From contig NZ_JPON01000001.1 of the NCBI RefSeq assembly GCF_000733935.1, forward strand, positions 496,001-560,000: 64,000 nucleotides of DNA. Reading direction: 5' to 3'. A model generated the notes under the pieces. That model was given only the letters and a program-made list of their open reading frames with translations. It had not been told where the DNA came from and made no database searches. Both the position numbers and the translations under genes were made by a program. This document shows positions 43,273 to 52,730 of this stretch, one piece after another. Origin of the DNA: Methylomarinum vadi. GTDB lineage: Bacteria; Pseudomonadota; Gammaproteobacteria; Methylococcales; Methylomonadaceae. Position 1 is the stretch's first letter; each line of letters starts with the position of its first letter.

Positions 43273-44763
43273 CTAGGCGTTGACCCGTTGCTGTTCGTCG
43301 GTTTCTTCTAGCTTGCCGGATTCGGCTAGTTCTCTATAAACCGCCATGACCGCTTCCTTGATGCTTTCCATGGCATGTTCGCCGTTCGGTTGAATGCCGG
43401 CCGCTTCCAACTGTTCCCAAGGTTCGTAGCCGATTTTCGAACAAAGCACGACTTCGCAGCCTTCCAGGGTGCGGATATTGCGTTGCAGGGCTGTTTCCGC
43501 CTCGCCGCAAGTGCTATCGCCGCTGCAGTACAAATCGGTTTTACGGTGACTGATGAAGCGCACGCCGTCGGGAGATGCCTCGTAGATCAGAAATTCCTTG
43601 GCATGGCCGAAGTGGACGTTCATGACGCCTTGTCCGCCGGTCGCGACTGCCATCAGTACCGGGCGAGTGGAAAGCTTGGGCAGCGTTTGCCGTTCTTGAG
43701 CGATTTGGGTTTTAGCGACGCGTTTCTCATCCATTTCCAAGGCGATCGCATCATGGATGACCTTACGTTTTTCCATCGCCGCTTGATAATCGATTTCCAT
43801 TTCCTCGATTTTGTCCATCGTGAACTCATCGCCGCGGTCTTCGCCCAATAACCCGACCGCATCGGCGCGGCACTGACGGCAATGCCGCATCATGTTCATA
43901 TCGCCGGCGCATTGATCCTGCAATTCCTGTAATTCCGCCGCCGTCGGCCCCCGTTGCCCCATGACGCCATAGAAAGTACCGTGTTCGGCCTCGGCGATCA
44001 GCGGCATGACATTGTGCAAAAACGCACCTTTTTCCTTGACAATCCTGCTGACTTCGGATAGATGTTTGTCATTGATGCCGGGAATCATAACCGAATTGAC
44101 TTTGACCAAGATCCCTTTGGCTACCAGCATTTCCAGACCTTTTTGCTGTTGTTCGATCAGGATTTTCGCGCCTTTCTTTCCCTTGATGCGGCGATTGTTC
44201 CAGAACACCCAGGGATAGATCTTGGCGCCGATCTCCGGATCGACACAATTGATCGTAATGGTGACATGGTCGATATTGTGCTGGGACAGCTCCTCGACCG
44301 ACTGCGGCAAAGCTAGTCCGTTAGTCGAGACGCAGAGTTTGATGTCGGGGGCTTGCTCGCTCAGTGCCCTGAAAGTGGCGAAGGTGCGTTCCGGATTGGC
44401 TAACGGGTCGCCGGGCCCGGCGATACCCAATACGGTCATTTGCGGAATGTTGGCGGCGACCGCCATGGTCTTCTTGACCGCTTGTTCGGGAGTCAGCAGT
44501 TCGGAAACGACACCGGGCCTTGATTCGTTGGCGCAATCGTATTTGCGGTTGCAATAATGGCACTGAATATTGCAAGCCGGTGCGACCGCCACATCCATGC
44601 GGGCGAAATAATGATGGGCATCTTCCGAATAGCAGGGGTGGTTTTGCACTTTTTCCCGAATATCGTCGGTTAAATGGCTCAGTTGATCGTCGGTCGAGCC
44701 GCAAGAGCCGGCCGAGCAACCGCCTTTAGTTGTCGGTTGGTCATTGAGTATTGGCAGTTCCAT
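43273..44763 (-). CDS. nifB: NifB, radical-SAM FeMo-cofactor maturase
   Basis: The 496-residue protein has the radical-SAM motif C-x3-C-x2-C (ACNIQCHYCNRKYDC, about 65-72) and further conserved Cys before it (HPCYSED) and in RHCRQCRADAVG, which bind the K1/K2 clusters. A C-terminal NifX-like domain follows (about 375-475; VMNVHFGHAKEFLIYE). It makes NifB-co, the 8Fe-9S-C core of all nitrogenase cofactors. First gene of the operon running to nifQ; the start ATG has the ribosome-binding site acgaggt and lies 25 bp after the predicted sigma-54 transcription start. Confidence 0.97.
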   Translation of the reverse strand: MELPILNDQPTTKGGCSAGSCGSTDDQLSHLTDDIREKVQNHPCYSEDAHHYFARMDVAVAPACNIQCHYCNRKYDCANESRPGVVSELLTPEQAVKKTMAVAANIPQMTVLGIAGPGDPLANPERTFATFRALSEQAPDIKLCVSTNGLALPQSVEELSQHNIDHVTITINCVDPEIGAKIYPWVFWNNRRIKGKKGAKILIEQQQKGLEMLVAKGILVKVNSVMIPGINDKHLSEVSRIVKEKGAFLHNVMPLIAEAEHGTFYGVMGQRGPTAAELQELQDQCAGDMNMMRHCRQCRADAVGLLGEDRGDEFTMDKIEEMEIDYQAAMEKRKVIHDAIALEMDEKRVAKTQIAQERQTLPKLSTRPVLMAVATGGQGVMNVHFGHAKEFLIYEASPDGVRFISHRKTDLYCSGDSTCGEAETALQRNIRTLEGCEVVLCSKIGYEPWEQLEAAGIQPNGEHAMESIKEAVMAVYRELAESGKLEETDEQQRVNA

Positions 44764-44798
44764 GAGTCATACCTCGTAAATGTGTTTGCCGAGGTATT

Positions 44799-44816
44799 AA
44801 GCATGCCTTGTGCCAA
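44799..44816 (-). promoter_or_regulatory. Sigma-54 (-24/-12) promoter of nifB operon
   Basis: On the minus strand the sequence reads TTGGCACAAGGCATGCTT: the TGGCAC box, then GG-N10-GC spacing exactly as needed, with GC at -12. It ends 36 bp upstream of the nifB start codon. Confidence 0.8.
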
Positions 44817-44879
44817 TCTTTGTGTTTTTTATAAGTTATTGAAATAATGGATAATTAAATTTTTTACAGAGAAAGGGAA

Positions 44880-44895
44880 TGTTAGAAAAGTAACA
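44880..44895. promoter_or_regulatory. NifA upstream activator site 1 (TGT-N10-ACA)
   Basis: The site is TGT-tagaaaagta-ACA. It lies 64 bp upstream of the nifB -24 box and about 140 bp upstream of the opposite sigma-54 site at 45037. Confidence 0.65.
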
Positions 44896-44912
44896 ATCTG
44901 CTTGTCGGCTTT

Positions 44913-44928
44913 TGTGAGGATAAATACA
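44913..44928. promoter_or_regulatory. NifA upstream activator site 2 (TGT-N10-ACA)
   Basis: The site is TGT-gaggataaat-ACA, 33 bp (three helical turns) from site 1. It could serve nifB on one side and the divergent transcript at 45037 on the other. Confidence 0.65.
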
Positions 44929-45036
44929 AAAATAGAGATTACGACTCTGAATGATCACCTTAAAAAGTTCAATTTTTTTACGTTACATGGGAACTAATAG
45001 GATATTATAGAGACTAATGTTATTTACTAGATAATT

Positions 45037-45052
45037 TGGCCTGAACATTGCA
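45037..45052 (+). promoter_or_regulatory. Sigma-54 promoter reading away from nifB
   Basis: On the plus strand, TGGCCTGAACATTGCA has both invariant dinucleotides at the correct GG-N10-GC spacing and the TTGCA -12 box. The two NifA sites are 109-157 bp upstream, the usual distance. No annotated protein lies directly downstream; the predicted transcript (from about 45064) would carry the hairpins at 45098-45211 and the 34-codon ORF at 45328. Confidence 0.65.
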
Positions 45053-45097
45053 TTAAAGAATTGACAACATCGAATAATCCTTGCTATTCATCGTTTT

Positions 45098-45211
45098 CAG
45101 GACAGGCCTGACGAGGGGGCTCGGATTAAATTCGCCGGGAATCCGGCAAGCCTACAGGAATAATAAATGACGCCCAATGAAGGCGTTAACAGCTATGAAG
45201 CGGAGTAGCTG
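45098..45211 (+). ncRNA. Candidate structured leader RNA between nifB and nifA
   Basis: Four helices follow one another: CAGG-acagg-CCTG (45098-45110); GGCT ... AGCC (45118-45121/45149-45152) enclosing GCCGG-gaat-CCGGC (45134-45147); TGACGCC-caatgaa-GGCGTTA (45168-45188); and CAGCTA-tgaagcggag-TAGCTG (45190-45211). The region is GC-richer than its AT-rich flanks and lies downstream of a sigma-54 site. I could not match it to a riboswitch class I know. It may be a leader of the small ORF at 45328 or an independent nif-coexpressed RNA. Confidence 0.45.
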
Positions 45212-45327
45212 AGTCGCGGAAAAACTTTCAACCATGTTGTATTGGTTTTTACCTGGAGGGATAGAGAGGCTGTTTCTTACCGTCATGGTGAGGAACGGTA
45301 TTGATCTGACATTAAAATATGGAGTGA

Positions 45328-45432
45328 ATGATGCACAAACAAGATTTTCGTAAAGACTTAAAAGATTGGTTGAAAATATTATTCTTACAATTTCTTCTGG
45401 TATTTGTGTTGGTCGCGGTAAAGTTCATCTAG
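45328..45432 (+). CDS. 34-residue basic membrane peptide between nifB and nifA
   Basis: ATG at 45328 (or 45331) follows a ribosome-binding site ggag at close spacing (atatggagtgaatgatg). The peptide starts MMHKQDFRKDLKDWLKIL, then a hydrophobic stretch of about 17 residues (LFLQFLLVFVLVAVKFI) to the stop. A charged amphipathic start plus one membrane helix suggests a small inner-membrane protein. It would be expressed from the sigma-54 site at 45037, thus probably under NifA. Not a family I know; it might also be a chance ORF. Confidence 0.5.
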   Translation: MMHKQDFRKDLKDWLKILFLQFLLVFVLVAVKFI

Positions 45433-45480
45433 CAGGCTGAAGGCGATGGCGGAAGATTCGATGAACTAGCTTGCATTAGG

Positions 45481-47007
45481 CTAAATTTGTTTGAGATTTA
45501 TATTCAGGGTTTGGATGCGGTAAGCGATTTGCCTGGGCGTCATATTCAGCAGACGGGCGGCTTTGGCCTGGACCCAGCCGCTTTGTTCCAAGGCGGCGAT
45601 GACTTTTTCACGCTCATCCAGGTTTTCGTCGTGAAGATCGATTTTGATCGATGGCTGAGGGGCGGGCAAAATACCAATTTCTTCCTCCAAGCCTGTATTG
45701 ATGATGACGTCGCGATCGATAATTCCATCGTTACTCATGATGGCGGCGCGCTCCAATCGGTTTTCCAGTTCCCGAACATTGCCGGGCCAACTGTATTTCA
45801 TGAGAATGCGCAGGGCGCTTTCCTTGATTTCCAGCAGTCGGCCGCCTTGCTGCCGGGACAGTCGCTTTAGTAAGAAATTCGCCAGTTCGGGAATATCGCC
45901 AAGACGTTCGCGTAACGGCGGCATGAAAATCGGCATCACGTTCAGGCGGTAATAAAGATCCTCGCGGAAGCGGCCTTCGGCGACATCTTCTTCCAGATTG
46001 CGGTTGGTGGCGGCGATGACGCGAACATTGACGCTCAAGGTCTTGCTGCCCCCGACCCGCTCGAATTCGCCTTCCTGCAATACCCTCAGCAATTTGGACT
46101 GAAACGAGGCGGAGATTTCGCCGATTTCGTCTAGAAAAATGGTGCCGTTATCGGCCAGTTCAAAGCGGCCTTTGCGTTGGCCGATGGCGCCGCTGAAAGC
46201 GCCTTTTTCATGACCGAACAATTCCGATTCCAACAGGTTGTCGGGCAGGGCGGCGCAGTTGAGCTTCAGAAACGGGCCGTTGCTGCAGCTGGAATTGTAA
46301 TGAATGGCGTTGGCGACGACCTCTTTACCGGTTCCTGATTCACCGCGTATCAACACGGTGGTGTTCCATTTCGCGACCTGACGGATAATGTCGAACACTT
46401 TCAACATGGGCTCCGAGTGACCGATGATATTTTCGAAGCGGTAGTTTTTGACTAGCGCTTGTTTCAAACTGTCGCGTTCATGCAGCAGTTCCTGTTGTTT
46501 TTTCTCCATCGCGCGCAGGTTCTTGACGCTTTGCGCGATTAGATTGGCGACCATTTCCAGAAAGCGGGCTTTTTCACCGAGAAATTCCCTATTGTGCGGT
46601 TGCGTGGTCAATACTCCGACAATTTCACTGCTACCCATCAAAATCGGGGCGCCGATAAAGGGCAGCTTCGGATCGTACAGGCCGAGCCGGCTAATGAAAC
46701 GGGGCTCGTCGGCCAAGCGTTCGACGACGATAGTGCTGCCCGCGTCCAAGATGGTTCCGACCAAGCCTTCTCCGGGGTTGTAACGAACCGATTTATCGAT
46801 CTCATCACCATACACCTCGCATACACTTAAACTGTCGTCTTCGTGGCTACGCAAGGCAATCATTCCGGAATACATGCGTAAACGACGGTGCAAGATTTCC
46901 AGTATGTTGTTGAGTTTATTATGTAAGTCGGTATTCGTATTAAGCGACTTGCTGACTTGATATAAAGTCTCCAGTTCCGACTCGACTAATTCATTGCAAT
47001 GGATCAT
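45481..47007 (-). CDS. nifA: NifA, sigma-54-dependent activator of nif genes
   Basis: The 508-residue protein has a GAF domain (about 20-165), an AAA+ domain (about 190-430) with Walker [11 protein letters not shown], the sigma-54 contact loop GAFSGA (usually GAFTGA), Walker [12 protein letters not shown] and R-finger region, and a C-terminal Fis-type helix-turn-helix ([20 protein letters not shown]). It lacks the Cys-rich interdomain linker of alpha-proteobacterial NifA, in keeping with control by NifL. The start overlaps the nifL stop by 4 bp. It should bind the TGT-N10-ACA sites upstream of nifB and rnfA. Confidence 0.96.
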
Positions 47008-48647
47008 TCATCAAACCTATCGTAGTCATTTTCGTTAATCATCGGGAAACCGACGATGAAGCGGCATCCATCCTGATATTCGGAATCTATTTCGATCGTA
47101 CCGTTGAATTGATGCGCGATTTCCTTCGCCATGACCAAACCCATACCGGCCTGGACGCCTCCCATTTTTTGCGTGGTAAAGAAGGGTTGAAAGACTTTAC
47201 TATGCTGCTGTTTCGGGATGCCTGGACCGGTATCGCTGATACTTACGATGACCCGGTCATTGTGCAATTTCGTCGCAATCATAATATTTCGATCCGGTTG
47301 ATGGCCTTGATTGAGCGCGGTGATGGCATTGTCGATCAATTGCTTGAACATCATTCGCAGTTTATTTTCCGCGCCCAGTATATTGGGCAAAGTCGGGCTG
47401 GGCGCCCAATCCACGACAATGCCGTTGCTAAGAAACTTTTTGTTACTCAGTTTCATGACTTCCTGCAGAATGTGGTTCAGATTGATCGAGGTAATCGCTG
47501 TCGGGGCGATTTCGGGGATGCAGTGATTCAAGGTCGATACCGTTTGCTGACAACTGTCTTCCAGTTGCTTCAGCAAATCGAGTAGCGCGCCTTGCTGCTT
47601 TTTTTGTTGCATCAAATGAATGGCGGCCTGAATTTGATTCAATGGCTGGCTCACTTGATGAATGGTGCCCAACAAGGTTTCGCGAATGCTGCGGATTTGT
47701 TCCTCTTCGGCCAGCATGGCCTTGAGCGATTGCAGATAAATTTCCTCCTGATGCTGACGTTGTTTGGTAATGTTGGAAATACTCAACAAGACATAATTTT
47801 CACTCGACTCTTCAAAAAAACCGGTAGCTTCGGCATTTTTTTCCTGAAAGATTTTCGCTGAACAGGCAAACCATAACGGATGATGTTTCGCGGCACTGTC
47901 GATGCGCACTTCATAGTTATTGAAACCAGCCGGATTTTGCGCCAGGTAGGTACGAATATCGCCTAATTCGCTGGACAATATTTCCAGAAACAAACGGATC
48001 GGTTCCGCATGATCCAGATCGCTGAACAGGGTTTTATATTGCAGATTATCCAGCACCACTTGGTCGTTTTGATCCAGCACCACCATCGCAACCGACGAAG
48101 CATTGATGACCGACTCGATCAGTAACTTTTGGTTTTGCAGTTTTTTTTCCACCCGAAACTTGTCGCTGATATCGCGGTGCATGCCCAGGTAATGGGTGAT
48201 GTTTTTCAACGAGTCCTGCATTGGCGCCACGGTCAGGTCGGCCAGGTATGGGTCGCCATTTTTATGCCGGTTGATCAGTCGGCCGTACCAAGTCTTATTT
48301 CTACTGATATTGTGCCAGAGATCGTAATAGACATGTCGCGGAGTGGCCTTATAGGACAGCATCGATTCGTTTTTGCCGATGATCTCGGCAATACTGTAAC
48401 CGGTGACGTCGCTGAATGCCTGGTTGGCGTACAGAATATTGGCTTTTTTATCGGTAATGGAAATCGCCACCGGCGCCTGTTCGACCGCTTCGACGAACAA
48501 CCAGGCCGGCAGTAATTCCCTGCGTTTGCCGTTCAAAATATCGATAAATTTTCCTTGTTCCCGATCGAGCAAGGCAGGGTTTAATTGATTGATGACCTTT
48601 TCGATGTCCGTATGCATTTGTAGATATTTTAGTGTTGTTTTTTCCAT
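47004..48647 (-). CDS. nifL: NifL, redox- and nitrogen-sensing anti-activator of NifA
   Basis: The 547-residue protein has a first PAS domain (about 50-150, VEAVEQAPVAISITDKKANI with the FAD-binding pattern), a second PAS-like region (about 185-300), then a histidine-kinase-like part with TIHQVSQPLNQIQAAIHLMQ and an ATPase domain (ISDTGPGIPKQQHSKVFQPF, GMGLVMAKEIAHQF). This is the NifL plan of Azotobacter and methanotrophs, where FAD oxidation or nitrogen excess makes NifL bind and silence NifA. Operon with nifA, overlapping by 4 bp. Confidence 0.95.
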   Translation of the reverse strand: MEKTTLKYLQMHTDIEKVINQLNPALLDREQGKFIDILNGKRRELLPAWLFVEAVEQAPVAISITDKKANILYANQAFSDVTGYSIAEIIGKNESMLSYKATPRHVYYDLWHNISRNKTWYGRLINRHKNGDPYLADLTVAPMQDSLKNITHYLGMHRDISDKFRVEKKLQNQKLLIESVINASSVAMVVLDQNDQVVLDNLQYKTLFSDLDHAEPIRLFLEILSSELGDIRTYLAQNPAGFNNYEVRIDSAAKHHPLWFACSAKIFQEKNAEATGFFEESSENYVLLSISNITKQRQHQEEIYLQSLKAMLAEEEQIRSIRETLLGTIHQVSQPLNQIQAAIHLMQQKKQQGALLDLLKQLEDSCQQTVSTLNHCIPEIAPTAITSINLNHILQEVMKLSNKKFLSNGIVVDWAPSPTLPNILGAENKLRMMFKQLIDNAITALNQGHQPDRNIMIATKLHNDRVIVSISDTGPGIPKQQHSKVFQPFFTTQKMGGVQAGMGLVMAKEIAHQFNGTIEIDSEYQDGCRFIVGFPMINENDYDRFDE

Positions 48648-48884
48648 TAGCCTTTAAACCTCTTATGCCCTGAGACGGCATAAATATGCCTGATGGATTG
48701 CCCGTATAGCGGGCTTGTGTATAGGAATGCGAATCGCCTAGTCATGTAATGGAATAACGGTAGAAATTATGTGTAAAAAGATTAGCAAATATAAGGCCAA
48801 GGTTTTTTGGCTGAGGAATTTCTTATGCTCAAAGAAAAAATGCCCTGGCAGGCAAGGCGGCAAGCAGGGTGAGGGAAACGCAAT
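48648..48884. other. nifL upstream region with two small hairpins
   Basis: The first part of the 413-bp gap between nifL and rnfA. It holds TATGCC-ctgagac-GGCATA (about 48664-48682) and GCCCG-tatag-CGGGC (about 48699-48713), which would lie in the nifL leader. I see no sigma-54 site directed at nifL, so a sigma-70 type promoter is assumed. Confidence 0.35.
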
Positions 48885-48900
48885 TGTCGCATTTACGACA
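48885..48900. promoter_or_regulatory. NifA upstream activator site for rnf (distal)
   Basis: The site is TGT-cgcatttacg-ACA, 107 bp upstream of the sigma-54 site at 49007. Confidence 0.65.
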
Positions 48901-48925
48901 AACGATTCGTCTTGATGGAGAGTGA

Positions 48926-48941
48926 TGTGTTTTTTGCGACA
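48926..48941. promoter_or_regulatory. NifA upstream activator site for rnf (proximal)
   Basis: The site is TGT-gttttttgcg-ACA, 41 bp from the distal site and 66 bp upstream of the sigma-54 site. Confidence 0.6.
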
Positions 48942-49006
48942 GCAATTCGCACACAAATGGTACGGGAATGCACTGAAATAGTGGAAGATGCGCAGTAATC
49001 GTTATT

Positions 49007-49022
49007 TGGCATGGTTGATGCT
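49007..49022 (+). promoter_or_regulatory. Sigma-54 promoter of rnf operon
   Basis: TGGCATGGTTGATGCT has GG-N10-GC spacing and a good -24 box. It lies 39 bp upstream of the rnfA GTG start, with two NifA sites upstream, so the rnf operon is probably nif-coregulated. Confidence 0.75.
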
Positions 49023-49060
49023 GACAGTTATGCAGAGTCCACAACGCTAGGTTGTATACC

Positions 49061-49638
49061 GTGACCGACTATTTACTACTTATTTTAGGAACCGCGCTGG
49101 TCAATAACGTGGTGCTGGTGAAATTTCTCGGCTTATGTCCGTTCATGGGGGTTTCCAACAAGCTGGATACCGCCTTGGGGATGGGGCTGGCCACGACTTT
49201 TGTGCTGACGCTGGCCGCCGCAGCTAGTTGGTTGCTGGAGCATTGGATTTTGCTGCCCCTGCAGATCGGTTTTCTCCGCATCCTGGGTTTCATTTTGGTG
49301 ATTGCCGCAGTGGTGCAATTTACCGAAATGGTGATTCATAAGACCAGTCCGGTGCTGTATCAGGTCTTGGGTATTTTCTTACCCCTGATCACGACCAACC
49401 CGCGGTATTAGGGGTTGCCTTATTGAATATCCAAGAACAATACAGTTTTGCCGAAAGTTTGTTTTTCGGTTTCGGGGCGGCTCTGGGGTTTACTCTGGTC
49501 ATGGTGATGTTCGCCGGCCTGCGCGAGCGCCTGGCCTTGATGACCGTGCCTGAAACATTTGCCGGCACACCGATTGCCTTTATCACCGCCGGTATTCTGT
49601 CCCTGGCTTTCATGGGGTTTGCCGGTCTTTACAAATAG
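49061..49638 (+). pseudogene. rnfA: RnfA, membrane subunit of the Rnf complex, with one-base deletion
   Basis: The GTG at 49061 gives the canonical RnfA opening [20 protein letters not shown]. The frame is normal to [10 protein letters not shown], where the family continues [10 protein letters not shown]. Here one base is missing (accaacccgcggtatta): the zero frame stops at 49411, while the shifted frame reads [20 protein letters not shown] and goes on correctly to FMGFAGLYK-stop at 49638. The total would be the usual 193 residues with six membrane helices. Either the gene is broken exactly at the conserved Asn-Cys or a base was lost in sequencing. Confidence 0.85.
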
Positions 49639-49644
49639 AGAGCG

Positions 49645-50202
49645 ATGACCATGTATGTAATTTCCGCCATTGTCAGTTTGACTTCCTTAGGGTTTTGTTT
49701 GGGCTTGTTGTTAGCCGTCGCGGCCCGTTATCTGAAAGTGGAAAGCAGTCCTGTCGTCGATGAACTGGAAGCTTTGATGCCCGGTTCGCAATGCGGACAA
49801 TGCGGCTATCCCGGCTGCCGCCCTGCAGCTGAAGCATTGGTGGCGGGTGATGCGCCAGTCACGCTCTGTCCGCCGGGGGGTACCACCTTGGCGGAACAAA
49901 TCGCCAGAATTCTCGGTGTCGAGATCGATTTAAGCGCGGTTGAGGAACCGGAACTCCAGGTGGCGAGAGTCAGCGAGGATACGTGTACCGGTTGCACCCG
50001 CTGCTTCAAGGTTTGTCCTACCGATGCCATCGTCGGCGCGCCGAAACAGATCCATGCCGTCGTGGCCGATGCCTGTATCGCCTGTCGTAAATGCGTCGAT
50101 GTGTGTCCGACAGAATGTTTGCAAATGCATCCGGTTGAAGTCACCTTGAAAAATTGGCGCTGGCATAAACCCGATACTGCGATAGTTGGAGCGTCCGCAT
50201 GA
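49645..50202 (+). CDS. rnfB: RnfB, iron-sulfur subunit of the Rnf complex
   Basis: The 185-residue protein has an N-terminal membrane helix, an Fe-S domain with CGQCGYPGC and a nearby Cys (TLCPPGG), and two 4Fe-4S motifs CTGCTRCFKVCPTDA and CIACRKCVDVCPTEC. It takes electrons from the complex and delivers them to ferredoxin; in diazotrophs Rnf drives ferredoxin reduction for nitrogenase. Its stop overlaps the rnfC start by 4 bp. Confidence 0.93.
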   Translation: MTMYVISAIVSLTSLGFCLGLLLAVAARYLKVESSPVVDELEALMPGSQCGQCGYPGCRPAAEALVAGDAPVTLCPPGGTTLAEQIARILGVEIDLSAVEEPELQVARVSEDTCTGCTRCFKVCPTDAIVGAPKQIHAVVADACIACRKCVDVCPTECLQMHPVEVTLKNWRWHKPDTAIVGASA

Positions 50203-51142
50203 TTAATTTAAAACGGATAATGCGCGTACGCGGCGGCGTCCATGCCGAGGAACGTAAAAGTAACACGTCGCAATTGCCGATAGTGACCGATTTGCCGCTC
50301 GCTAAAAAACTCTATATTCCATTGCAACAGCATGTCGGCAAGGCGGCCGAGCCGGTGGTCAAAGTGGGCGAACGGGTGTTGAAAGGGCAGTTACTGGCGC
50401 ATAGTCAGGGCCTGATTTCAGCGCCGGTTCATGCGCCCAGTTCCGGCATCGTCGGCGACATCCACCTTTATCCGGCGCCGCATCCGTCGGCACTGCCGAT
50501 ACGCACAATCGTCATAGAAACGGACGGCAAGGACGAATGGACACCGTTAAGCCCGGTCTCCGATCCATTTTCCAGGGACCCGGAAGAAGTATCGGTCAGA
50601 GTCGCCGCCGCGGGTGTCGTCGGCATGGGCGGGGCGACCTTTCCCGCAGCCGTCAAACTCAATCTGGGGCGTAAGAACCGCATTCATACCTTATTGATCA
50701 ACGGCGGCGAATGCGAGCCCTATTTGACCTGCGACGACCGCTTGATGCAGGAACGCGCCGAAGCCATCATCGATGGCATCCGCATCATGCTGCACGGCAT
50801 GGCAACGCCGCAAGCGATTGTTGGCATCGAAGACAACAAACCCGATGCGATCAAACGGATGCAACGGGCCGCTTTGCCGTTCGCCAATATCAAGGTGGTT
50901 AAAGTGCCGACCCGTTACCCGATGGGCTGGGATAGGCAATTGATCCGTTATTTGACGGGCAGGGAAGTGCCGGCTGGATCTCGAGCGACCGATGTCGGCG
51001 TGCTGATGCATAACGTCGCGACGGCCTACGCCATTCATAAAGCGATAAGGGATGGCGAACCATTGCTTAGCCGAATCGTTACCGTTTCCGGCGGCGCGGT
51101 GACGTGGCCGATGAATATCGAGGTGCCTATCGGTACTTTGAT
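50199..51142 (+). pseudogene. rnfC: RnfC, N-terminal two thirds, truncated by IS1380-type element
   Basis: The start MINLKRIMRVRGGVHAEERK is typical, followed by the lipoyl-like segment, the NADH/FMN site GVVGMGGATFPAAVK, LLINGGECEPYLTCDDRLM and VPTRYPMGWDRQLIRYLTGR. The host sequence stops after EVPIGTLI at 51142; the frame enters the element and ends at 51170. The part carrying the two 4Fe-4S clusters is missing and is not found beyond the element, nor are rnfD, rnfG or rnfE. The complex from this locus cannot be functional as drawn. Confidence 0.9.
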
Positions 51143-52730
51143 TAGCCCGGATATTTCATCAGTCCCTTGAAACCCTATCGAAACCCTCGTTTGTTTTAAA
51201 ACATGCGATCGTAAGGAGAAATTGAGCGGTCAAAAAGGGAATTAAGCATTGATTTCCGTTTTTCAGGCGCAACTTCCCCTTACCCCATTGTTTATCAGCG
51301 TGCCGGGCACAGCACTCTGTTTGTACTAATCAGGGCACAGGCGCTGACAAACGGATTTAAACAGGGATTGAAACGGATACTGACTGCTGAACAGCAGTCG
51401 AATACGACGGGTGTTACGAATGATGACGGCACCGATTTTAAACAATTTCAGGCGAATGGTGGCGCAAGTGGCTGTCGCTAGTTCGGTGTTGTTGAGGGCG
51501 ATTCGGCGAATCGCCTGGATCAGGGTATAGGCCAAGGTGGATAACAGCAAACGAAACTGATTCGGCCACCACAGGCTGCAACTGGTGCGGTCGGCAAACA
51601 GATCCAATTGTTGCTCTTTAATCCGGTTTTCCATGTCGCCTCGCGCACAGTAAACGGTTTCATAGAGTGTTTGTGCATCGCCGTCCAGATTGGTGACGAC
51701 ATAGCGGGGATTACTCCCTTGGCTCATGTGTTCGGCCTTAAGAATGACACGGCGTCGGCGTTTCCAGGTGCCGGCTTTATAGTGGAAATCGGTAAAGAGA
51801 CGCTGTTTCTGCTGTTCGCTTTGGAACTGTTGCCGGGCTTGTTCAATCCAGGGTTGGCTTAAGCGCGTTAAGCGTTTATTTTTGGCCAACCCGACAATAT
51901 AGTGAACGCGATGCCGCTCGCACCAACTCAGCATCTTATGGCGACAAAAACCGCCATCGCCGCGAAACGTGATGTCAACGTCCGGCCAAGCCTGACGCAA
52001 GCGCCTGACCAGCAACGCCAGAATCGCCCAGCTGTGCTTGGCGCCATCAATATTGCTGGGACGTAGATAACTGACCAAGCAATGATGGCCGCAAAAGACA
52101 TACAACGGCAGGAAACAATAGTGCCGATAGTAGCCATGAAAAAAACGTCCGTCCTGTTCGCCATGAACCGGATCGTCGGTGGCGTCGAAGTCCAGGACCA
52201 ACGATTTCGGCGGTGTCTCATACGAAGCGATAAACTGCGCCACCAGTTCCTCATGAACGCGCCACATCAAGGCGCGATCCGCCTGCTGCTCAAACCGGCA
52301 CAAGGTGGATCGGCTGCCCAATGTCTGATCCTTTTCCACCGCCGTCTGAAAGGCGATATCATTTCTGAGCGTGTCATGATCATTCAAATCCTCATACCCA
52401 CACGCCAAGCCATAAACCCGTTGACGGAGCAGGTTGATCACAGAGTGTTGCACGCGGTCAGGGGCTCTGGCGTCAGGAATCTGCGCCGCTATCCGTTCGG
52501 TTAATCCTAATTGCTGGTCAATCGCTCTTAACAACAGCACACCGCCATCACTGGTGATCGCTCCACCACTGAATTGGGCGTCTATTTTACGGCGTTTTAA
52601 GGGAGGAAATTCTATCTGAGCTGGAGTACAATTTGTCATGGGCAAGTTGTTGGTTAAATTCAATCTAAGTAACTGAATTTTATCAAATATCAACAAACTT
52701 GCCCGCCTCTATCATGAAATATTCGGGCTA
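51143..52730 (-). mobile_element. IS1380-family insertion sequence
   Basis: The ends are inverted repeats: TAGCCCGGATATTTCAT at 51143 and, on the other strand from 52730, TAGCCCGAATATTTCAT, one mismatch in 17. The element is 1588 bp and carries one transposase. The flanks share only GAT directly next to the ends, shorter than the usual 4-bp duplication, and the sequences on the two sides are unrelated. This suggests a rearrangement at the element rather than a simple insertion. Confidence 0.85.
51326..52639 (-). CDS. IS1380-family DDE transposase
   Basis: ATG at 52639 (MTNCTPAQIEFPPLKRRKID) gives 437 residues. Family features are ITSDGGVLLLRAIDQQLGL, the catalytic Asp in SLVLDFDATDDPVHGEQ, Asp in ITFRGDGGFCRHKMLSW and the Glu in YCARGDMENRIKEQQLDL. 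The longer frame to 52696 extends into the terminal region. Apparently intact. Confidence 0.93.
   Translation of the reverse strand: MTNCTPAQIEFPPLKRRKIDAQFSGGAITSDGGVLLLRAIDQQLGLTERIAAQIPDARAPDRVQHSVINLLRQRVYGLACGYEDLNDHDTLRNDIAFQTAVEKDQTLGSRSTLCRFEQQADRALMWRVHEELVAQFIASYETPPKSLVLDFDATDDPVHGEQDGRFFHGYYRHYCFLPLYVFCGHHCLVSYLRPSNIDGAKHSWAILALLVRRLRQAWPDVDITFRGDGGFCRHKMLSWCERHRVHYIVGLAKNKRLTRLSQPWIEQARQQFQSEQQKQRLFTDFHYKAGTWKRRRRVILKAEHMSQGSNPRYVVTNLDGDAQTLYETVYCARGDMENRIKEQQLDLFADRTSCSLWWPNQFRLLLSTLAYTLIQAIRRIALNNTELATATCATIRLKLFKIGAVIIRNTRRIRLLFSSQYPFQSLFKSVCQRLCPD

Follow-up and report, generated by a model that had tools for sequence, protein, structure and literature searches.

Methylomarinum vadi carries a predicted divergent sigma-54 promoter, structured leader and 34-residue membrane peptide opposite nifB in an apparently decaying nif regulon

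In Klebsiella pneumoniae, sigma-54 promoters for nifF and nifLA stand back to back with activator sites between them, and both sides read into established nif operons. These divergent promoters were reportedly described by Minchin, Austin and Dixon in 1988. The spacer between nifA and nifB of M. vadi resembles that arrangement in having two apparent sigma-54 promoters back to back within a nif cluster, again with activator sites between them. It differs in that one side appears to read into an orphan gene and in that sharing of the sites is a prediction here.

Small RNAs and small proteins tied to nitrogen status provide further comparisons. NfiS and NfiR, two RNAs of Pseudomonas stutzeri, act on the mRNAs of nifK and nifD (PMC9170634). 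The RNA predicted here would share their tie to nitrogen-fixing conditions, but neither of those two genes was detected in the M. vadi genome, and the RNA expected from the promoter at 45036 lacks an Rfam match and carries an open reading frame (ORF). Membrane proteins of fewer than 50 residues are a recognised class that includes the stress-induced, 27-residue YohP (PMC12719787). On the features given there, the predicted peptide is like YohP and the membrane-acting type I toxins in being shorter than 50 residues, with one hydrophobic segment and a basic flank, and unlike them in its predicted control by NifA and sigma-54. Methanosarcina mazei has small proteins with a comparable tie to nitrogen status, one of which inhibits ammonium transport (PMC10714827); M. 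mazei is an archaeon, and the likeness is one of description. Among the open-access literature titles listed, none concerned a small membrane protein driven by NifA from opposite nifB, which is no proof of novelty.

The window analysed here is a 64-kb stretch of a one-contig genome (4,335,162 bases; listed completeness 100; examined stretches free of N). Its gene order is nifL, nifA, a 717-bp spacer and nifB, with all three genes on the - strand and the divergent feature read from the + strand of the spacer (Table 1). We propose, at roughly even chances, that a divergent NifA/sigma-54 promoter in this spacer drives a structured mRNA, specific to this lineage, that encodes a membrane peptide of 34 residues within a decaying nif regulon. 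The spacer would then be a two-sided sigma-54 promoter region: the side that holds both NifA sites serves as the nifB promoter throughout the family, and the other is a newer promoter at 45036. Active NifA, predicted to bind both sites, would contact sigma-54 polymerase on either side, and the geometry allows the two promoters to share the sites. Transcription would yield nifB mRNA in one direction and, in the other, a short mRNA from near 45063, with a folded leader of ~265 nt and one translated ORF, ending close to the 3' terminus of nifA or within it. The peptide would insert in the membrane by a single pass. The leader would most likely set the stability or translation of the short mRNA, rather than act as a conserved RNA regulator. 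Because the nitrogenase structural genes were not found and the Rnf genes beside nifL are broken, the peptide, if functional at all, would most likely be a small membrane protein of nitrogen starvation, or it may lie idle in a decaying regulon.

Table 1. Coordinates of features in and around the nifA-nifB spacer, numbered from the first base of the window
Feature	Position	Strand	Remarks
nifB	43273..44763	-	496 aa; TIGR01290, 647 bits, over cut-off; Radical_SAM and Nitro_FeMo-Co domains
Sigma-54 site facing nifB, TTGGCACAAGGCATGCT	44800-44816	-	Score at least 20; conserved
NifA-type activator site 1, TGT-N10-ACA	44880-44895	+	Position upstream of nifB conserved
NifA-type activator site 2, TGT-N10-ACA	44913-44928	+	33 bp from site 1, start to start
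Divergent sigma-54 site, TTGGCCTGAACATTGCA	45036-45052	+	Exact TTGGC-N7-TTGCW; score at least 20
Predicted stems	45075-45128, 45134-45147, 45168-45188, 45190-45211	+	From folding
13-codon ORF across two hairpins	45167-45208	+	SD-like motif; leader peptide or chance
Strongest predicted stem	45269-45299	+	13 bp, four G-U pairs, 5-nt loop
34-codon ORF, MMHKQDFRKDLKDWLKILFLQFLLVFVLVAVKFI	45328-45432	+	GGAG 3 nt before first ATG
Inverted repeat, 8 bp, perfect, 30-nt loop	45422-45467		Weak terminator candidate without T-run
nifA	45481..47007	-	508 aa; TIGR01817, 659 bits, over cut-off
nifL	47004-48647	-	Over NCBIfam cut-off
rnfA	49052-51170 and 51326-52696 (jointly with rnfC and the IS1380 gene)		Beside nifL; model positions 2-105 of 174, then another frame
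rnfC	As for rnfA		Truncated: model positions 2-308 of 435, then IS1380 transposase gene

The nifB enhancer and the sigma-54 site behind it

A first-pass annotation of this stretch had described two TGT-N10-ACA sites 33 bp apart, flanked by sigma-54 sites facing away from each other, and all of these elements are present. TGT-N10-ACA as such occurs in the window at chance frequency (10 found, 9.73 expected). Its position and spacing upstream of nifB are nevertheless conserved across 80 relatives, which were read alongside the window and come from 129 other genomes with nifB. Their selection was manual and drew mostly on the highest-ranking nifB matches; every fetched row was kept, and two of the stretches (L074 and L077) end at contig edges. 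Within this hand-picked set a sigma-54 site scoring at least 19 faces nifB in all 81 loci, window included, and an activator pair less than 60 bp apart is found in 72 of the 80 relatives (73/81 counting the window), with a spacing of exactly 33 bp in 54 (55/81). Such conservation marks the two sites as part of what appears to be an old, family-wide nifB enhancer. IHF-like sites amounted to two matches, each with one mismatch.

The far side of this enhancer is far more variable. A sigma-54 site scoring at least 19 within 300 bp on that side occurs in three of the 80 relatives: in G221 it faces a protein resembling NifE of the window's genome, in G218 one resembling NifN, and in G076 no ORF longer than 36 residues lies ahead of it. 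In G084, the sole other nifB carrier of the genus, the best far-side score is 15. The divergent promoter thus looks newer than the nifB side and lineage-specific in the window's genome. Because genes like nifE or nifN stand opposite nifB in two relatives, a divergent gene on the nifB enhancer has precedents, if rare ones. In most of the 80 relatives the activator pair persists without a strong divergent site, so nifB alone can explain the pair, and the activator sites near 45036 are to be expected for the sake of nifB even without a second promoter. Among relatives the nifA-nifB spacer varies, in some with further inserts. An 86-residue ORF (MTILYVQHDYAVFGFGET...) upstream of nifB is whole in 7 of 81 loci (L081, L082, L083, L085, L087, L253 and L266) and partial in three more; it is absent from the window's nifA-nifB spacer.

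As a promoter, the 45036 element has much to recommend it. Its GG and GC elements are correctly spaced, and the activator sites lie at enhancer distance, with their starts 123 and 156 bp upstream; a transcript would be expected to start near 45063. By a score that is our own weighting of a consensus, fixed after this site was known, three sites reach at least 20 on both strands of the 64-kb window, namely those facing nifB and rnfA and the one at 45036; the nifL site scores 19, as do four further sites. The exact motif TTGGC-N7-TTGCW has two occurrences in the window, one at 45036 (+) and a second, which faces nifL, at 48784 (-). Genome-wide the motif occurs 75 times versus 31 for a backward control pattern, so that many of the 75 must be chance occurrences. 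Among the 30 of these 75 whose loci were covered, two TGT-N10-ACA sites within 300 bp upstream are found at 45036 and nifL only. A single such site precedes a homocitrate synthase gene (L096; Pfam), L098 (273 bp away) and the paired loci L099 and L100, where it reads TGTGA-N6-TCACA, presumably a CRP-like palindrome. Taken together, these comparisons make it unlikely that the 45036 element is a chance occurrence.

L099 and L100 (C1:761802 and 766095) are near-identical copies ~4.3 kb apart, each with an exact sigma-54 site; neither has an ATG ORF of 90 codons just downstream, and a transposase-like frame lies alongside. A second divergent arrangement occupies window positions 48647-49052, where sigma-54 sites face nifL (48784) and rnfA (49006) and two TGT-N10-ACA sites (48885 and 48926) lie between them.

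The predicted leader and the 34-codon ORF

Of the hairpin cluster that had been placed at 45098-45211, the substance holds, with + strand stems predicted across 45075-45211, but the strongest stem, at 45269-45299, was missing from that list and had been overlooked. Because four of its pairs are G-U, this stem would form on the + strand and hardly on the - strand, a modelled bias that speaks for a + strand RNA. Predicted folding energies are -20.4 kcal/mol on the + strand versus -7.7 on the - strand for 45251-45310, and -29.3 versus -13.3 for 45217-45330.

Measured as overall stability, the leader is only modestly unusual for the window, with z-scores from -2.0 to -2.9. One of 200 shuffles of 45064-45330 folds as well or better (z -2.9), as do 3 of 200 for 45064-45250 (z -2.1); pieces of the leader give z -2.66, -2.05 and -2.38. 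For comparison, 5% of 213 tiles of 150 nt along the window's + strand reach z -2.36, and 10% reach -1.81. The local hairpin count is more telling: three or more non-overlapping hairpins of at least 7 bp arose in 9 of 2000 shuffles of 45064-45330, and a stem of at least 13 bp arose in 10 of 2000. The leader also contains two short reading frames, the 13-codon ORF of Table 1 and a 39-codon ORF without an SD-like motif, both less supported than the 34-codon ORF.

The 34-codon ORF had likewise been noted with its ribosome-binding site, and we find both, together with a predicted membrane segment. A second ATG at 45331 has the GGAG 6 nt ahead of it. The N-terminal half of the predicted peptide is basic, and its one hydrophobic segment has a mean hydropathy of 2.76 over 17 residues. 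An SD-like motif combined with such a segment occurs in 3 of the 447 window ATG ORFs of 25-70 codons, this one included, whereas none of 1000 shuffles of 45053-45480 yielded an ATG ORF of 30-70 codons with both. Scored against host codon usage, the ORF has a log-likelihood of +0.8 in frame, and the two alternative frames score -24 and -17. The ORF and the hairpins are non-random, by tests which, like those on the promoter, postdate the choice of this spot by the first-pass annotation. The inverted repeat at 45422-45467 lies where the ORF and nifA run toward each other. Elsewhere, another small ORF, of 63 codons at window position 1857 (+), pairs an SD-like motif with a segment of very high hydrophobicity (mean hydropathy 3.55).

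A search for relatives of the RNA by covariance modelling had been suggested. Our leader model was built from one sequence, entered twice, with search filters that may drop weak matches; it returned 12 matches at E 0.088-0.85 per genome and no credible RNA relative in 236 other family genomes. Rfam gave no match at gathering score in the window, and at E<=10 across 44770-45500 it gave SNORD57 and P11 alone, far below their own cut-offs. Neither the 236 family genomes nor Rfam thus supplied homologues with compensatory changes of the kind that define a conserved structured RNA family. At the DNA level, 120 other family genomes gave nine weak matches, three of which (L003, L005 and L006) were inspected and showed no kinship by eye. 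Across 310 other genomes of the order there were nine matches in eight genomes at E 0.002-0.008, somewhat more than the two or three predicted by the E-values. We rejected these as relatives: each spans 21-32 bases inside a 192-640-codon frame of another gene, and four fall in one same kind of gene. Plasmids and phages gave no match to the divergent-side sequence. Comparison also ruled out the spacer being a copy of another genome stretch or of the nifL-rnfA spacer, and the leader is not a remnant of a lost nifH leader, as 30 nifH loci share no sequence with it.

The peptide has fared no better in such searches. No Pfam or NCBIfam model matches it, and plasmids gave no match. In 310 other genomes of the order, 11 of which match at E<=0.5, no match is credible and no homologue of the kind expected for a conserved small protein emerged; the best (E 0.011 per genome, 38% over 29 residues) contains an internal stop. 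Eleven loci inspected among 17 other matches included none that by eye was an ORF of like kind; in one of them, in G084 of the same genus (E 0.25-0.29), the matched stretch opens a larger, membrane-like frame 169 codons long. The 34-residue peptide therefore appears to be lineage-specific, an orphan. Lack of peptide conservation was one of three outcomes that the first-pass annotation had named as refuting its proposal, and it is the outcome found in these 310 genomes.

Losses from the nif and rnf genes

The first-pass annotation treated the organism as a working nitrogen fixer, an assumption its genome speaks against. A usual minimum gene set for predicting diazotrophy is nifHDKENB (PMC8399215). 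In the window's own genome, PF00148 at E 0.001 finds NifE and two pieces of NifN, with no NifD or NifK, and TIGR01287 (nifH) at E 1e-60 has no match, whereas it matches in 60 of 121 family genomes searched. With PF00142 there are six weak matches, five of which pass its cut-off and the best of which scores 37.5 bits, but the model also passes that cut-off in 13 of 14 control genomes, so the six are no evidence of NifH. At strict thresholds, nifH is found in two, nifB in two and nifA in one of six genomes of the genus.

What remains in the genome is nifLA, nifB, nifE, the homocitrate synthase gene and a NifX/NifY-type gene with a Nitro_FeMo-Co domain. The nifE gene has its own sigma-54 site and activator site, and nifN is split by an IS200-type element (L274:12436-15803). 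Beside nifL, rnfA is broken by a frame change and rnfC is truncated (Table 1). Although nifHDK may reside on a plasmid outside the assembly, nitrogen fixation has probably been lost, or is being lost, in the strain as sequenced. A small protein acting on nitrogenase or on Rnf had been proposed; with nifHDK not detected and the Rnf genes beside nifL broken, a peptide serving nitrogenase or this Rnf is unlikely in the strain as sequenced. The original observation is therefore confirmed and its interpretation partly supported, with the roles proposed for the products mostly undercut.

Weighing the readings of the divergent side

In favor of a divergent promoter driving a structured mRNA for the peptide are the rank of 45036 among the three top-scoring sites in the window, an ORF beyond what shuffles produce and hairpins biased to the + strand; the nifL/rnfA divergent pair, 4 kb away, is a further point on this side. 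Counting against it are the lack of any credible RNA or peptide relative in the genomes compared, the weak far side of G084, the sufficiency of nifB as an account of the activator sites, modest folding z-scores and a decaying regulon, which favours relics. If the divergent side is transcribed, an orphan gene would have been put under a nif enhancer by the gain of one sigma-54 site, and the nif regulon would seem to outlive the nitrogenase it served. Two questions could then be tested in a single strain: how enhancers recruit genes, and what keeps nifA, nifL and nifB open after nitrogenase is gone. If it is not transcribed, the locus would show cleanly how promoters can linger as relics while a regulon decays.

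That last outcome, a + side that is a relic whose sigma-54 site once served another gene and whose ORF and hairpins are functionless, is the chief rival, doubtful in our estimate but a serious contender. The losses from nif and rnf genes fit it, as do the nifE- or nifN-like genes found divergent in G221 and G218 and the varied inserts in relatives' spacers. Yet nifE has sigma-54 and activator sites of its own and so did not simply leave the 45036 promoter behind. The nifH leaders of 30 loci, with sigma-54 sites 59-86 bases before nifH, are short and unlike the 45036 leader. An ORF joining an SD motif to a hydrophobic segment, beyond 1000 shuffles, would also be unexpected in leftover sequence.

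A bolder version of the divergent-mRNA proposal holds that NifA, its nitrogenase lost, keeps working on a new target, namely a small membrane protein whose leader is RNA-controlled. The nifB enhancer would have captured a gene by gaining one sigma-54 site, and the old switch for nitrogen fixation would now drive a different response to nitrogen starvation. We consider this unlikely.

It is decidedly unlikely, in our view, that the peptide is a type I toxin-like membrane protein switched on by nitrogen starvation and perhaps held in check by antisense RNA. Its sequence features are those of such systems: a short hydrophobic peptide with a basic flank follows a long, structured leader, and a strong hairpin stands just ahead of the ribosome-binding motif. 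A promoter-like sequence at 45189-45160 (-) could yield an antisense RNA. Promoter-like sequences, however, occur at chance level (3 found, 2.4 expected), and the protein family models that went unmatched count against a toxin as well.

Less probable still is that the hairpins form the 3' end of the nifLA transcript on the - strand, as a terminator or stability element, with no + strand transcript at all. A terminator-like hairpin with a T-rich tail does lie on the - strand at 45186-45170 (one found, 0.4 expected), and the hairpins of 45134-45211 pair on that strand too. That terminator-like hairpin, however, is ~300 nt beyond the nifA stop, folding strongly favours the + strand both for the strongest hairpin and for the leader's second half, and neither the sigma-54 site nor the ORF is explained. 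Least probable of all is a + transcript serving as an antisense regulator of nifA, for although a scan of 44700-45560 found no + strand terminator and the stop codons of the 34-codon ORF and nifA are 48 bp apart, this geometry implies only a 3' overlap.

When 30 NifA loci, from the window and 29 relatives, were read with 1500 bp of flanking DNA, nifB was found beside nifA in that of the window alone. Two relatives, G065 and G126, each gave two nifA matches, those of G126 possibly being contig pieces.
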